From the NCBI GenBank assembly GCA_947493335.1, contig CANLQO010000001.1:1798001-1862000 (forward strand): DNA of 64,000 nt, read 5' to 3'. The number at the start of each line of letters is the position of its first letter. Position 1 is the stretch's first letter. The position numbers and the translations under genes are program-made. This stretch comes from an uncultured Paracoccaceae bacterium (GTDB taxonomy: Bacteria > Pseudomonadota > Alphaproteobacteria > Rhodobacterales > Rhodobacteraceae). The notes beneath the pieces were generated by a model, which saw only the letters and a program-made list of their open reading frames with translations, was not told the origin of the DNA and searched no databases. Shown piece by piece: positions 27,244-33,733 of the stretch.

Positions 27244-28476
27244 TCACGAGCTCATTTTCTTAGTTAGCGCATCAAATGGACCAATTGACCCGAAGTCGTC
27301 TCTTACAACCCCATCAGACGCAGGCGCGAATAACCTCCCGATCAACGCCCCCATAAATTCCGGATTAATATGCCCTTTTTCGGCTAGGGCGAGGTAAGTC
27401 TGGGTCATTGTAATTCTCTCAGACGCATCATTCCATAAGTGCAACTGGCTTGCGAAGAGCCGGTAAATGATTCGGGAGAATATGAGCACTAATGCGAACA
27501 TCAAAGCAAAAATACCGACCGCCCCAATTTGCGCATCCGACCAATATTCAACAAATCCGCTGAAACCACCGTCAAATGACCTGGCGTAACGCACACTCAA
27601 GAACACCAGAACAGAAGAATAGGCTAAGAAAACAACCGCGAAGATAAAGGTAGAAAATCGATGCCACCAGAGCTTTGACTTCCAATAGCTGATCGGCCCT
27701 TGCAGCGCCAACTCCGTCTCATAGTACTCTCTAATTTGGGCCAGCTTGCCTTTTGTATCATCAGTTAGCACTTTGACTTCGATGCCGTACGATTTGCGAA
27801 GCTGAATTCGTTCCTTATCGAGCAAACGTCGATGGTCTTCCAACGCGCCCATGAACAAACTGGATACTTCTTCAATTGTTTCCCGACTCGTTGAATTTAG
27901 ACGCTCAAAATCATCCAAGTTGTCTGCAAAAGATTGCGCATAGTCCGTGACCAGTCTTTGCAGTTCTTTCTCTGTGCCTTGCGACTTCCTTACCGACGAA
28001 GTCGCAGACTTCTTCGAAATGCCAAGTTCATATGCGGCCAGCGCCGCAGCGCCCTTCATATGATGCACATTGCTCGCGATTGCGTTAGTTGATGGCATAG
28101 CATTGACCGTCAACACGGCGGCCGCCAATTCGGGATCGCCATCAGCAATTGAGCACACAAATTTTCCCAACCCGTCCGTTGAGAACAAGTATTTGCCTTG
28201 GTCAATCTGAACATTCAGAGCTTTTGTCGCATTGTTCAGTTCATTCTTGGCTGTTTCGCTTTCTGGGTCTCCCATGAGTTCATGTGCCCTTCGAGCTGCC
28301 AAACGAGGATAAACTTCAAATGGCTTCTTGATGTCTCGCGTTAATTGATCATCGACTTCGCTTAGCCAAGACCAATTCTCGGCTTCCGTATCAAACCATC
28401 TGGCCAAAGCGTCAAGTCGACTGAAATGAAGGCTCTCCCCGTCCAGGGTTCTGACATTGACATCGATTTTCGTCAC
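27244..28476 (-). CDS. DUF6161-like membrane protein, coupled to thyX
   Basis: A 410-aa protein, clearly AT-richer than its neighbours. Residues 1-180 are soluble and helical; 180-260 form a likely coiled coil ([36 protein letters not shown]). Two membrane spans follow ([17 protein letters not shown] and [17 protein letters not shown]). The C-terminal block [20 protein letters not shown] and [10 protein letters not shown] resembles DUF6161. Function unknown. The GTG start shares bases with the thyX stop (GTGA), with GAGGGGG upstream. The base composition suggests acquisition by transfer. Confidence 0.7.
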
Positions 28477-29378
28477 CCAATAACCCCCTCAAACTCCCGC
28501 CACTCGCCCTTCGACATACCCGACGTCTCTTGGGTGACCGTCTCACCAGCCAGCATGCGCTTCAAACATTGCAAGCCCTTCTCGGACAAGACGGCACCGC
28601 CCAGACGGTAATCCTCGAACGCGCGATACGCGGCGGGGACCCAGTCGGCGACGATTTTGCACATGGCTTCGGCATAGACGCGGATTTCGTATTGCGCATG
28701 GGCGTCGGCGCGCAGGCGCAGGAAGTGGAAGAGGTTGTGCAGATCAACCTTCCAGTACCATTGGGTGTAGATGTTCGCGGGCAGGTTCATGCGGGCGAGT
28801 TCACGGGCGAGGCCCTGTTGGCCCTCGTCCGAGATCATCTCTTCATAATGGTCATAGGCGGTGGCTGAATCGTCCTTGAGGTAGCGCAGGACGCGGGCGG
28901 CCTCTTCGCCGGAAAGCGCCTCTCCCCTGCCTTGATTGTTCACAACCGATTGCGCGGCGAGGTGTTCGGGCGCGGGGATGTAGAATTCGCGGTCGAGGAT
29001 CGAGTAGCGGGCGGAGTATTCGTTGACGTTGGCGGTGCGGTGCCTGATCCACTGGCGCGCCACGAAGACGGGCAGTTTGACGTGCAGCTTGACCTCGCAC
29101 ATCTCGAACGGGGTCGAGTGCCAGTGCCGCATCAGGTAGCGAATGAGGCCTTCGTCGTTCTGCACGGACTTTGTGCCCTTGCCGTAGCTGACCCGCGCGG
29201 CCTGACAGATCGCGGCATCATCGCCCATGTAGTCGATGACCCGGACGAATCCGTGATCGAGCACGTCATGGGCGAGATAGAGGTGCTTTTCCATGCCCTC
29301 GGACACGGCGCGCAGCGTCGGTTTGGACTGCTGGCGCAAAAGATCAATTTCGGCCTGTTGCGTGTCGGTGACGGGCAT
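28473..29378 (-). CDS. thyX: FAD-dependent thymidylate synthase
   Basis: ThyX makes dTMP from dUMP using FAD, NADPH and methylene-tetrahydrofolate. The 301-aa protein carries the ThyX motif as [14 protein letters not shown] and the substrate loop [16 protein letters not shown]. Arginine and glutamine contacts lie in QWYWKVD and ARQWIRHR. It is somewhat longer than the shortest ThyX proteins because of an N-terminal extension, usual in this order. Its stop codon is shared with the next gene. Confidence 0.96.
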
Positions 29379-29552
29379 GGGCTACTCCTGTGGGGTGTTG
29401 AGTCGTGAGACACTATATCTAGAGGACGTGCGCGGCAAAACCTCCATATGCGGAAATTAAAGTGGGGATAAAGCGGTGTTCACGATTGACTCACCATAAT
29501 GGGGCTAGGATGATGATGTTGATTTTTTGAACCCACGACAGGTATTCGACCG

Positions 29553-30497
29553 ATGAACCGTCTTCTGACAACCGCGGCACTGCTGGCATTGCTGGCCGCG
29601 TGCGACAACGCGCAGCCATTCACCTTTGCCCCGGTGGGCGATGAAGAGCCGGTGGAGGACCCGAATGCAGAAGAGGAGCCGGTTTCGGCTGCGGGCATTC
29701 CGGAAAGCGTGGGCAATAACGTTGAAACGGCGACATATCGGCCCGGCGACAACTTTTTGTCGGTGCAGATCACGTCGCTCGACTCGACCCCTGTGAATGC
29801 GATTTACGAGCGCAATTCTGCGCTGGATGTGCCGGGCTACCGCGCGTTCAGCCAGCAGGAAGACCCGCTGGACCGTATTTTCATTGGCATGGCGCAGCAG
29901 AAAAGCGGCGTGACTGGCGTGCTTGTGATGGATGGCGGTCAGTTCAATCGGTTCTTCGGCGGCGTTTATTATGAACAAAACGGGGCCTATTCGGCGCATT
30001 CACCGTCACAACCGGACAACGGTCTGGTGTCTTATGCTGGCAATTATATCGGGCTGCTGAATATTGATGCGCCCCGCCCAAATGAGGCTCTCCCGTTGCC
30101 TGCTGGCACCGATCCCGCGCTGGAGCCCGGGCAAGCGTCGCGTGTGACGGGGCAGATCTTTATCAACGCGGATTTCGCGGACAACACCGTGAACGGCGTG
30201 ATCTATAACCGGCAGGTCGTCGACTACGGGAATTCGCCGCTGCAGGATGTGGTGCTGATCGTGGCGGATGTGAACGAAGACGGAAGCTTTAGCGGTGATG
30301 TTGAAAACCCCGCGCAAGATGCGCTTGGAAGCTGGGCGGGAACGTTTGGTGGCGTGCAGGCCTCTGGCATCGCCGGTGGCATTGGCATCGAGGAATTCAT
30401 CGAAAACGTTGAAAACGAAGCGGAATATGGCCTATTCGTACTGACAAAATGTGGTGACAGCGGCGATTCCTCCATCTGTGATGATGTTAACCCGTAA
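29553..30497 (+). CDS. TbpB-like surface lipoprotein, probable Slam substrate
   Basis: A 314-aa protein with a lipoprotein signal (MNRLLTTAALLALLAAC; lipobox LAAC) and an acidic tether (EEPVEDPNAEEEPV). A handle-like region follows, then a C-terminal eight-stranded barrel of the TbpB type: GQIFINADFADNTVNGVIYN, DGSFSGDV, WAGTFGGVQASGIAGGIGI. A cysteine pair near the end (TKCGDSGDSSICDD) may form a disulfide. The Slam-like gene directly downstream overlaps its 3' end by 17 bases. Expected on the outer surface of the outer membrane; the ligand is unknown. Confidence 0.82.
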   Translation: MNRLLTTAALLALLAACDNAQPFTFAPVGDEEPVEDPNAEEEPVSAAGIPESVGNNVETATYRPGDNFLSVQITSLDSTPVNAIYERNSALDVPGYRAFSQQEDPLDRIFIGMAQQKSGVTGVLVMDGGQFNRFFGGVYYEQNGAYSAHSPSQPDNGLVSYAGNYIGLLNIDAPRPNEALPLPAGTDPALEPGQASRVTGQIFINADFADNTVNGVIYNRQVVDYGNSPLQDVVLIVADVNEDGSFSGDVENPAQDALGSWAGTFGGVQASGIAGGIGIEEFIENVENEAEYGLFVLTKCGDSGDSSICDDVNP

Positions 30498-31851
30498 GAT
30501 CACCGCCTTGGTGTGCGCCCTGATCTGGGCGGCACCCGCGGTCGGACAGCAAACCATCGAATTGCCCTTTGAGCAGGCCCGCGTGATCGCGGCGCAAGCA
30601 GCACAAGGCGGAGAGCCGGGGCTGGCGATTGATCTGGCCCGGGCGCTGTTAAAGGCCGACCCGGATGATCGGGTGGCCCATTTGGTGCTGGCCAGCGCCC
30701 TGCCCCAGGTCGGACAGGCCAAAGCGGGGCGACAGGCGGGTCAGCGCGCCTTTGCCCTGTCCACCACACCAATCCAGAAGTATGAAGCCGCGCGACAGGT
30801 GGCCCTGGCCGCCGCAAACGAGGGCCGGTTCACATTGTCGACGCTATGGTTGCGCCGCGCATTGATCCATGCCCCCAACGACACCGAGACCCAACGCACG
30901 CTGGAGGACGCCCGGCAAGTGGCGCGGATCAATCCCTGGTCCACCAGCCTGAGCTTTTCGCTGACGCCATCGGGCAACGTCAACGGTGGATCAAGCAGTC
31001 AGTTGCTGACCTTTGACGGTCTGCCGTTCTTTGGTGTCAACTCGCCTGACGCGCAGGCGTTGTCGGGGATAGTAGGCCGCTTTGGTATCAATGTCAGTTA
31101 CCGGTTGCGCGAGACCGCGCAGGACCGTGTTCAACTCGCTTTCTCCTATGATGCCAGTCGGGTCTGGCTATCGTCAGAGGCGCAAGAGCAATCGCCCAAC
31201 AGTCGCAATTCTGATTTCTCGTCGGATGTCGCCTCTGTTTCGCTGAGCTATGACAGGCTCTTGGGGAAAGCGCTGGGGTCGGTCGGTGTCTCGATCGGTC
31301 AGGTGCGCTATGCAGGCGACCCCTACTATGACTTTGGCCGCGTGACGCTGTCTTACACCCGCCCGCTTGAAAACGGCCACACCATCTATCTGTCTGGATT
31401 TACAGAGTTTCAGGACAGTGCCGATGGGCCCAGCCGCGACGTGACCCGCAACGGTGCCCGCGCGACCTATGCGCTGGCTTTGCCGCAGGGGGATCGTTTG
31501 TCAGGCACGCTGGGCTACACCAAGGCAGATAGCGACAGGATCAACCAGACCTCGACCGAGTGGTCGTTTGAGGCGCGCTGGACCCCAGAGCGCCGCATCG
31601 GCCCGGCACAAGTCAGCCTGAGCGCGGGGATCACCAAGCTGGATTACCCCGAATATGCGATCTTTGTGGTGATCCCGGACGGGCGCGAGGATACGACCCG
31701 CTCGATTGGTTTGGATATCACTTTTCCAGACGTGCAATTTGCTGGCTTCAGCCCCGTGATCAGCCTGTCCAGGTCCAGTTCCAAGAGCAATATCAGCCGG
31801 TTCACCCGCGATACGAACCAGATCGGATTTAATATCAGATCATCGTTCTGA
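30481..31851 (+). CDS. Surface lipoprotein assembly modifier (Slam-like, type XI secretion)
   Basis: A 456-aa outer-membrane protein. A signal peptide (MLTRKITALVCALIWAAPAVGQ) is followed by a periplasmic TPR region of about 120 residues (AIDLARALLKADPDDRVAHL, LSTLWLRRALIHAPND), ending at INPW. The C-terminal 300 residues alternate as an outer-membrane barrel and end in the usual phenylalanine (RSSF). This is the Slam/DUF560 layout, in which the barrel moves lipoproteins to the cell surface. The overlapping upstream gene is the predicted cargo. Confidence 0.82.
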   Translation: MMLTRKITALVCALIWAAPAVGQQTIELPFEQARVIAAQAAQGGEPGLAIDLARALLKADPDDRVAHLVLASALPQVGQAKAGRQAGQRAFALSTTPIQKYEAARQVALAAANEGRFTLSTLWLRRALIHAPNDTETQRTLEDARQVARINPWSTSLSFSLTPSGNVNGGSSSQLLTFDGLPFFGVNSPDAQALSGIVGRFGINVSYRLRETAQDRVQLAFSYDASRVWLSSEAQEQSPNSRNSDFSSDVASVSLSYDRLLGKALGSVGVSIGQVRYAGDPYYDFGRVTLSYTRPLENGHTIYLSGFTEFQDSADGPSRDVTRNGARATYALALPQGDRLSGTLGYTKADSDRINQTSTEWSFEARWTPERRIGPAQVSLSAGITKLDYPEYAIFVVIPDGREDTTRSIGLDITFPDVQFAGFSPVISLSRSSSKSNISRFTRDTNQIGFNIRSSF

Positions 31852-31908: not shown

Positions 31909-32337
31909 ATGTCACTCAAATATCTACACACGATGATCCGGGTCAAAGATCTGGAAGCCACACAAGCCTTTTTCCGTCTGTTGGGGCTGGAAGAAACCCG
32001 GCGCCACGACAATGAAGGCGGGCGATTTTCGCTGATCTTCATGGCGGCCCCCGGGGATGAGGATTGCCCAATTGAACTGACCTACAATTGGGATGGCGAC
32101 GAGGGGCTGCCCTCTGACAGCCGTCACTTTGGCCATTTGGCCTATGAGTGCGACGATATCTATGCCCTGTGCCAGCACCTGATGGACAACGGCGTCACCA
32201 TCAACCGTCCGCCGCATGATGGCCGTATGGCCTTTGTCCGGTCGCCCGACAATGTTTCGGTCGAGCTGTTGCAAAAGGGCGAGAGCCTGGCCCCGGCTGA
32301 GCCCTGGACCAGCATGGGCAACACCGGCCATTGGTAA
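31909..32337 (+). CDS. gloA: Lactoylglutathione lyase (glyoxalase I)
   Basis: A 142-aa glyoxalase I that isomerises the methylglyoxal-glutathione adduct. Metal ligands are visible as His in LHTMIRVKDLEATQAFF, Glu in IELTYNWD, His in FGHLAYECDDIY and Glu in NVSVELLQKG. The ELTYNW and GHLA patterns separate glyoxalase I from other VOC proteins. A strong GGAG site precedes the ATG. It overlaps the next gene by seven bases. Confidence 0.92.
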   Translation: MSLKYLHTMIRVKDLEATQAFFRLLGLEETRRHDNEGGRFSLIFMAAPGDEDCPIELTYNWDGDEGLPSDSRHFGHLAYECDDIYALCQHLMDNGVTINRPPHDGRMAFVRSPDNVSVELLQKGESLAPAEPWTSMGNTGHW

Positions 32338-33026
32338 GGGCCGCGGCCCTTCTGGCGCTTTGGCCCGGCGGGGCCGAGGCGTGCCGGTTGGCGCTGGTGT
32401 TGGCGATGGATGTCTCTTCTTCGGTGAATGCCGAGGAAGACGCATTGCAGCGTGGCGGGTTGGCGGCGGCACTGATGGCGCCCGATGTGCAGGCCGCGTT
32501 CTTTGCCAGCCCCGACCCCGTGGCGCTGGCGGCATTTGAATGGTCGGGGCGTTACAATCAGCAGGACCTGCTGGGGTGGACCCTGATCGAAACCCCGGCC
32601 GATCTGGCCACAGCCGCCGCCCGGATCGGCGGGTCAACCCGCAGCCACAACGACTTTCCAACCGCGATGGGCTATGCCCTTGGTCACGCAGCCGTGCGTC
32701 TGCAAGACGCCCCTGCCTGTCTTTTCCGCACCATCGACATGGCCGGCGACGGTGAAAACAATGACGGCTTTGGTCCTGAAGAGGCCTATGCCGCATTTGC
32801 CTTTGACGGGGTCACGGTCAACGGGCTGGTGGTGAATGCAGGCGAATACGAGGCCGAGGTGAACCTGATCGCCTACTACGAAGCGCAGGTTCTGCACGGG
32901 CCGGGCGCGTTTCTGGAAATCGCCAACGGGTTTGAAAACTATGCCGCCGCGATGGAGCGCAAGCTGATCCGCGAACTGGGCGCGATGGTGCTGGGCGGTG
33001 CGCCTGCCGGGGCCAGCGGCGGATGA
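32331..33026 (+). CDS. DUF1194 (von Willebrand A-like) protein, first of a tandem pair
   Basis: A 231-aa exported protein. A short signal (VRAAALLALWPGGAEA) precedes a VWA-like domain with the MIDAS motif DVSSSVN at about residue 27. FEWSGRYNQQDLLGWTLI and RTIDMAGDGENNDGFG are typical of DUF1194. The start is a TTG inside the end of gloA, and its stop overlaps the next gene by ATGA. This suggests a coupled three-gene unit. VWA domains bind proteins through a metal ion; the partner is unknown. Confidence 0.83.
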   Translation: MVRAAALLALWPGGAEACRLALVLAMDVSSSVNAEEDALQRGGLAAALMAPDVQAAFFASPDPVALAAFEWSGRYNQQDLLGWTLIETPADLATAAARIGGSTRSHNDFPTAMGYALGHAAVRLQDAPACLFRTIDMAGDGENNDGFGPEEAYAAFAFDGVTVNGLVVNAGEYEAEVNLIAYYEAQVLHGPGAFLEIANGFENYAAAMERKLIRELGAMVLGGAPAGASGG

Positions 33027-33733
33027 GGGCGCTGGCAATCCTGTTGGCGCTTTGGGCCAGCACCGGTCAGGCCGCCTGTCGGCAGGCCCTGGCCCTTGGG
33101 CTGGATATTTCTGGCTCTGTCGATGCGCGGGAATATTTGTTGCAGCGCAACGGTCTGGCCACTGCGCTGAGCAGCCCGGCGGTGCAGGATGTTCTGTTTG
33201 CACCCGGTGCGGCCCCCATCCGGATCGCGGTCTATGAATGGTCCGGCCCAACAGAGCAGGTGCTGATTGTGCCCTGGACCGAACTGGTCGACCCAGCCAC
33301 CCTTGCGACGGTTCTGGGCGTGCTGCAAAGCAAACCGCGCCCGGTGCAAAGCCCCACCACGGCGATTGGCTCTGCCCTGCAGGCGGGATTTGATCTGCTG
33401 GGGCCGCAGGCAGATTGCTGGAAGCGCACATTGGACATCTCGGGGGATGGCAAGGCCAACACGGGCCCCCTGCCCCAGACGATCCCGGTTCCCGATGGTC
33501 TGTCGGATGTGAACGTCAACGCGCTTGTGATTGGCATCGCGGAACGCCCCGGCGGGAACTGGGGTGCCGGGATTCAGGATCTCACCTCATATTTTGAGGC
33601 CTATGTCCTGCGCGGACCTGCCCCATTTGTGGAGGTCGCCCTGGGCTATGACGATTACGCCGATGCCATGGAGAGCAAACTCTTGCGCGAGTTGGAAACG
33701 CTGGCCACATCGCGACAGTTCCACCAGGACTGA
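33023..33733 (+). CDS. DUF1194 (von Willebrand A-like) protein, second of a tandem pair
   Basis: A 236-aa paralogue of the preceding protein. Signal MRALAILLALWASTGQAAC, MIDAS motif DISGSVD, then YEWSGPTEQVLIVPW and RTLDISGDGKANTGP. The two share the same segment order and the C-terminal pattern of a GYDDYADAMESKLLRELE end against GFENYAAAMERKLIREL in the first. It was probably produced by duplication and kept as a pair. Confidence 0.83.
   Translation: MRALAILLALWASTGQAACRQALALGLDISGSVDAREYLLQRNGLATALSSPAVQDVLFAPGAAPIRIAVYEWSGPTEQVLIVPWTELVDPATLATVLGVLQSKPRPVQSPTTAIGSALQAGFDLLGPQADCWKRTLDISGDGKANTGPLPQTIPVPDGLSDVNVNALVIGIAERPGGNWGAGIQDLTSYFEAYVLRGPAPFVEVALGYDDYADAMESKLLRELETLATSRQFHQD

Follow-up and report, generated by a model that had tools for sequence, protein, structure and literature searches.

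The closest described relatives of the locus analysed here are pairs consisting of a Slam-type outer-membrane protein (OMP), the type XI secretion system (T11SS) protein, and its cargo lipoprotein. Slam1 and Slam2 of Neisseria and Moraxella combine a TPR domain with a SlipAM barrel and are paired with TbpB, fHbp and HpuA, lipobox-bearing cargos with a TbpB-like barrel (PMC5449769). Our pair appears to share this layout, the cargo barrel being a weak match, although its similarity to the Neisseria and Moraxella Slam systems is remote in sequence and its genome has no TonB match. It also resembles, by description, NilB and NilC of Xenorhabdus nematophila, an OMP and a lipoprotein cargo whose C-terminal barrel is eight-stranded; the proposal there is of a role at host glycans (PMC9100927). 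The bearer of NilB and NilC is nematode-associated, whereas the organism examined here is marine. Nearest of all is the T11SS locus of cluster 3 in Grossman et al. 2025. In that paper (PMC12282271) a domain search finds TbpBBD at 8 of 145 cluster 3 loci, with 0.21 cargo per OMP. A structure-based look at the locus in 11 Roseobacteraceae/Rhodobacteraceae strains finds a predicted cargo lipoprotein in ten. Links to DUF1194, glyoxalase, thymidylate synthase and one-carbon metabolism are suggested there, and the locus in its Fig. 8 comprises thyX, a barrel lipoprotein, an OMP, a lactoylglutathione lyase and at least one DUF1194 gene.

In the window, by which we mean the whole stretch of 64,000 nucleotides that was analysed, thyX, cargo, OMP, gloA and DUF1194 all stand together in a roseobacter relative, and the likeness to cluster 3 is one of gene set. 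Because a locus of thyX, lipoprotein, T11SS protein, gloA and DUF1194 appears in Fig. 8 of PMC12282271, both pair and locus are already published and ours is a further case of a known type; the gain lies in corrections to the published picture. The features discussed below are as follows.

28473 to 29378, minus strand: thyX, divergently oriented gene of the flavin-dependent thymidylate synthase; part of the conserved context and probably outside the pair
29553 to 30497, plus strand: lipoprotein of 314 aa, predicted to be the T11SS cargo, with an N-terminal domain and a TbpB/fHbp-like C-terminal barrel (profile matches, homologues)
29553 to 29603, plus strand: signal peptide and lipobox (LAAC; lipidated Cys17; Asp at +2) (sequence)
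30138 to 30383, plus strand: TbpB_B_D match, residues 196-277, below the Pfam cut-off (profile match)
30450 to 30494, plus strand: C-terminal tail with a Cys pair past the last barrel strand; 19 of 50 lipoproteins have it, and it is characteristic of one of the two cargo types
30481 to 30497, plus strand: gene overlap, 17 bases (open reading frames, sequence; similar overlaps in relatives)
30481 to 31851, plus strand: Slam-type T11SS OMP, 456 aa, with signal peptide, TPR domain, C-terminal barrel and Phe as last residue (profile matches)
30586 to 30696, plus strand: TPR match, residues 36-72, periplasmic domain (TPR_14)
31429 to 31821, plus strand: SlipAM (PF04575) match, residues 317-447, barrel domain (profile)
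31909 to 32337, plus strand: glyoxalase-family gene, named gloA here; conserved context
32331 to 33026, plus strand: DUF1194 protein; context
33023 to 33733, plus strand: second DUF1194 protein; context

The two genes of the pair lie on the plus strand and have 17 bases in common. The preliminary description had claimed a lipobox lipoprotein gene overlapping by this amount the gene of a TPR-plus-barrel OMP, which the coordinates and the terminal Phe bear out. A promoter/terminator scan does not give a clear operon boundary, with four promoter-like sites against 1.9 expected and eight terminator-like sites against 5.9 expected; one of the promoter-like sites (29486-29514) is upstream of the lipoprotein gene. 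Compared with four congeners, the lipoprotein has a dN/dS of 0.07-0.09 and the OMP of 0.11-0.21, at dS values near saturation. A MarR-type regulator gene is also among the neighbours of the pair. We note that a DUF6161 gene (410 aa open reading frame, window positions 27244-28476) shares four bases with thyX.

The OMP reading frame starts with the ATG at 30481 and stops at 31851, encoding a signal-peptide-like N-terminus and a C-terminus ending in RSSF. Its SlipAM match scores 23.5 bits, above the curated cut-off of 22, and SlipAM is found in 35 of 54 OMP homologues at E<=0.01 (best 1.8e-11). The TPR_14 match (E 0.0016, 19.4 bits) is below its cut-off of 23.5; among the homologues, 25 of 54 have it at E<=0.01. 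The alignment behind these counts takes in 54 of 58 loci (L066, L069, L085 and L095 omitted). Used as a profile against the PDB, it retrieves TPR chains (best E 5.7e-16), and no barrel of the Slam family is among the best 60 of 82 matches; the single OMP sequence matches designed TPR proteins. Residues 151-456 give 19 peaks of alternating hydrophobicity against 11.5 (sd 2.0) in shuffled sequences, a barrel-like periodicity rather than a strand count. The final residue, Phe456, does not vary among 20 sequences, and among 54 its conservation is at least 90%.

The lipoprotein begins with MNRLLTTAALLALLAAC, a signal peptide with, by pattern, the lipobox LAAC and Cys17 at 29601-29603. By the same pattern a lipobox is present in 50 of 55 lipoproteins, the window's included; two more (L055, L092) have one by eye, and three are truncated or broken. 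The claimed TbpB-type C-terminal barrel is weak in this single protein, for which PF01298 reaches 17.9 bits and its cut-off is 26; it is the relatives that help. At E<=1, TbpB_B_D matches 12 and FHBP_C 15 of 48 lipoprotein homologues, the best at about 1e-5. A profile of these 48 (of 55; L055, L092, L081, L087, L066, L069 and L095 omitted) matches 16 PDB sequences at E<=1 and none at 0.001; fourteen are factor H binding protein or lipoproteins so named (best E 0.011), and the remaining two are polysaccharide deacetylases. The single lipoprotein gives one PDB match, at chance level. The protein is not a member of the narrow named family NF041636 (slam_lipo, an NCBIfam equivalog), to which it scores 18.9 bits against a curated cut-off of 80.

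Two cargo types can be told apart at the C-terminus. Nineteen of 50 lipoproteins, including that of the window, carry the Cys pair, possibly a disulphide, and 28 of 50 end in an ETGGF-like strand. Within the genus the N-terminal part of the lipoprotein varies less than the barrel (dN 0.08 vs 0.15, from one pair with dS near saturation); because of this lower N-terminal dN, we favour a ligand that stays conserved over an arms race, with due reserve.

Linkage of the two genes is tight. A scan of named genomes yielded 57 related loci. Profiles made from the two window proteins place the lipoprotein gene immediately upstream of the OMP gene at 54 of these; of the three misses, two lie on contigs that start at the OMP gene, and the third, L064 (Pseudodonghicola), shows none. 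With the window included, spacing was measured in 54 of 55 pairs (L094, which has no landmark, was omitted): 27 pairs overlap and 23 are separated by 0-20 nt, so that 50 of 54 overlap or lie no more than 20 nt apart. The conserved order and spacing, together with the low dN/dS values, point to more than a chance arrangement.

The same holds across the family. In an evenly drawn sample of 296 genomes from 295 genera, with a strong OMP match defined as E below 1e-50 and a lipoprotein match as E below 1e-10, the lipoprotein is present in 136 of 146 genomes with a strong OMP, 2 of 6 with an intermediate one, 1 of 42 with a weak one and none of 102 without. The cargo gene thus accompanies the OMP as a rule in this family, unlike the rarity reported for cluster 3 from the domain search in PMC12282271. 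That rarity is mostly an effect of domain thresholds, because TbpB_B_D matches just 12 of the 48 lipoproteins at E<=1.

Ten strong-OMP genomes have no match to the cargo profile, and nine of these were inspected. L144 has a divergent cargo; in L138 and L139 a lipobox reading frame that the cargo profile does not match adjoins the OMP; in L140 and L143 the space between thyX and OMP is too small for a cargo; L145 is a contig edge; and at L141, L142 and L146 nothing was seen at the cargo place. Conversely, L149 (G287, full length) and L160 (G189, worn) have a lipoprotein gene in the slot between thyX and gloA with no OMP gene beside it, and the OMP match in the genome of L149 is weak only.

Cargo and OMP have also evolved jointly. 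For the 29 of 58 loci at which all five genes were found and the lipoprotein is intact, lipoprotein and OMP tree distances correlate with r 0.81, a value that is still 0.81 after removal of the thyX, gloA and marR signals; none of 2000 permutations is as high. The partial correlation of the lipoprotein is -0.06 with gloA and 0.33 with thyX, the latter not zero (0 of 2000 permutations as high). The two cargo types, which were set after viewing the lipoprotein alignment and before the thyX and gloA trees, give a similar picture. Over 37 of the 50 lipoproteins (those of neither type, L049, L082, L048, L085, L088, L056 and L080, were omitted, as were L044 and loci whose available sequence lacks thyX or gloA), the OMP tree calls for one change of cargo type, the thyX tree for seven and the gloA tree for eight; shuffled labels give a mean of 12 changes and a minimum of 8. 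Because the thyX and gloA trees are each short, the two genes were also tested jointly, in a "quick" tree with SH-aLRT support only. This tree requires eight changes, and a single clade of the Cys type is rejected (lnL 191 lower, p-AU 1.9e-50). With one change on the OMP tree against eight on the joint tree, matched pairs have therefore been swapped at a single fixed position, or old alleles have been sorted there. At the level of domains, in an exploratory comparison of 47 loci, the TPR domain correlates at 0.36 with the cargo barrel and 0.00 with the cargo N-terminal domain, and the OMP barrel at 0.33 and 0.45, respectively; the distances are long, and we place no weight on these values.

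Judged by how the two genes are built and ordered, by the family matches, and by their co-occurrence and joint evolution, the lipoprotein and the OMP very probably make up a T11SS (Slam) pair, a self-contained cassette that would display the predicted surface lipoprotein. The preliminary description had proposed a Slam protein with its cognate lipoprotein in a marine alphaproteobacterium, and it gains support from the matches to both families, the two-gene linkage, the co-occurrence, the correlated trees and the same locus in the literature. Three other readings have to be set against this. In the one suggested in PMC12282271, the T11SS protein acts with thyX, gloA and DUF1194, in one-carbon metabolism, in aldehyde detoxification or with the vWA-like DUF1194 protein as cargo or partner. 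The co-occurrence counts given there favour it, as does the presence of the neighbours at OMP loci with room for them: gloA is found at 54 of 54 and DUF1194 at 43 of 54. At OMP loci thyX is present at 45 of 52. These neighbours, treated as possible functional associates in that account, nevertheless persist here without the pair. Our set of empty sites comprises 60 of the 65 family genomes in which the OMP match is absent or weak and the thyX position is listed (four of the other five are covered by the 30-locus set below, G182 was omitted, and genomes with no listed thyX position are outside the set). No OMP was found at any of these 60 thyX loci, yet gloA follows in the same direction at 57 (within 450 nt at 48; median 181 nt) and DUF1194 is present at 39, somewhat less commonly than with the OMP (p 0.098). 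Of 30 thyX loci from relatives, 18 have the lipoprotein, and the OMP is seen in 17 of these (the sequence of L104 stops short of it); the other 12 have neither, and nine of them keep gloA inside 1.5 kb. Furthermore, gloA and DUF1194 are inverted away from the pair in Maritimibacter L070 and L083, gloA is displaced in L084 and L091, and the co-variation of gloA with the cargo is gone once thyX and marR are removed. We consider a partnership with the neighbours unlikely; thyX, gloA and DUF1194 are probably context. By eye, the slot between thyX and gloA holds a mutually similar membrane-protein gene at L151, L175, L181, L206 and L113, which are without the pair; the two of these genes that were checked (L206, L113) are DUF817.

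The remaining two readings accept the genes and differ about the fate or the use of the lipoprotein. By the sorting rule of E. coli, Asp at +2 after the lipid Cys would favour retention in the inner membrane. This residue is found in 10 of 50 lipoproteins, including the window's, with Glu in three more, and is a caution against surface display. The lipoprotein might then stay in the periplasm or inner membrane, with the OMP exporting something else, for example a second, unlinked barrel lipoprotein encoded on contig 4. The existence of that second lipoprotein speaks for this, as do L140 and L143, where the OMP gene leaves a linked cargo no space; NilC, moreover, can be periplasmic as well as surface exposed (PMC9100927). 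The near-obligate presence of the linked cargo with the OMP and their joint evolution speak against it, and we hold retention to be improbable. As for use, the cargo could be a nutrient-piracy co-receptor that passes transferrin, heme or a metal to a TonB-dependent receptor, in the manner of TbpB, HpuA or HphA. Its C-terminal barrel is weakly homologous to that of TbpB/fHbp, and a plug domain is present in 84 of 146 strong-OMP genomes. It is as frequent in the genomes without a strong OMP (89 of 150; p 0.81), and is absent from 62 of the 146 and from 57 of 136 genomes with both cargo and OMP. Among 61 genomes searched, 13 of the 21 that carry the OMP have no plug, the window's included, and none of the six genus genomes searched has one. 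The preliminary description had noted that no TonB-dependent receptor is adjacent; this proves correct, and the absence extends to the whole genome (99.96% complete), in which the family profiles for the receptor barrel (PF00593), the plug (PF07715) and the TonB C-terminus (PF03544) find no match. Run on 14 control genomes, each of these searches was positive in three: E. coli, Caulobacter and Bacteroides. A partnership with a TonB-dependent receptor of the known families is very unlikely in this organism because none was found in its genome; the co-receptor role, highly improbable overall, is rejected here and, barring an unrecognised receptor family, refuted for this genome. Ruegeria pomeroyi DSS-3 has been reported to be without TonB transporters (PMC3400609), and another R. 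pomeroyi strain has the pair (L065).

The unlinked lipoprotein has 267 residues and a related C-terminal barrel, lies on contig 4 of the window genome (G000) at 183772-184572 (L126, 5773-6576), and is flanked, by eye, by pheS-like and ribosomal protein L20-like genes. It occurs in three of six genus genomes (also G003 and G005), a weak fourth match being that genome's linked cargo. Pfam gives no match for the copy in the window genome; the G003 copy matches TbpB_B_D at 16.6 bits, below the cut-off. In Neisseria, several unlinked cargos share Slam1. Because the window genome contains a single Slam-family OMP at the thresholds used, the unlinked lipoprotein may be a second client of it. Elsewhere, contig 4 of G007 (L026) encodes, as a second OMP, a distant T11SS-like protein (E 1.2e-5) with its own 229 aa lipobox gene immediately upstream.

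Returning to the T11SS pair, we infer the likely transport steps from other such systems, Neisseria Slam1 and Xenorhabdus NilB among them. The lipoprotein would be made with a type II signal peptide, lipidated at Cys17 and brought across the periplasm unfolded; by analogy with Slam1, Skp would keep it unfolded before it passes through the OMP (PMC9090332). The OMP would recognise the C-terminal eight-stranded barrel and let the lipoprotein through its own barrel to the outer leaflet, with the N-terminal domain facing outward. Stand-alone binding or adhesion, as proposed for NilC, seems the likeliest role of the displayed protein; a ligand from a host protein is not expected in a marine bacterium. 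The two genes of the cassette would enter the slot between thyX and gloA, leave it or be replaced there together, as a matched unit, probably via recombination in the conserved flanks. We put at about even chances the full reading, that of a TonB-independent, self-contained cassette of the Roseobacter family in which matched alleles, with two or more cargo types among them, pass as units between lineages at this slot, probably by such flank recombination.

The pair itself was known. What changes is the picture of the marine T11SS, in which the cargo is nearly always present and thyX, gloA and DUF1194 are probably not partners, and Slam-type display is separated from TonB-driven nutrient piracy. 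A single locus also supplies natural matched and mismatched alleles of cargo and channel for tests of cargo specificity in marine bacteria that are harmless. If the exchange of matched units is true, these lineages would switch a surface protein along with its dedicated exporter.
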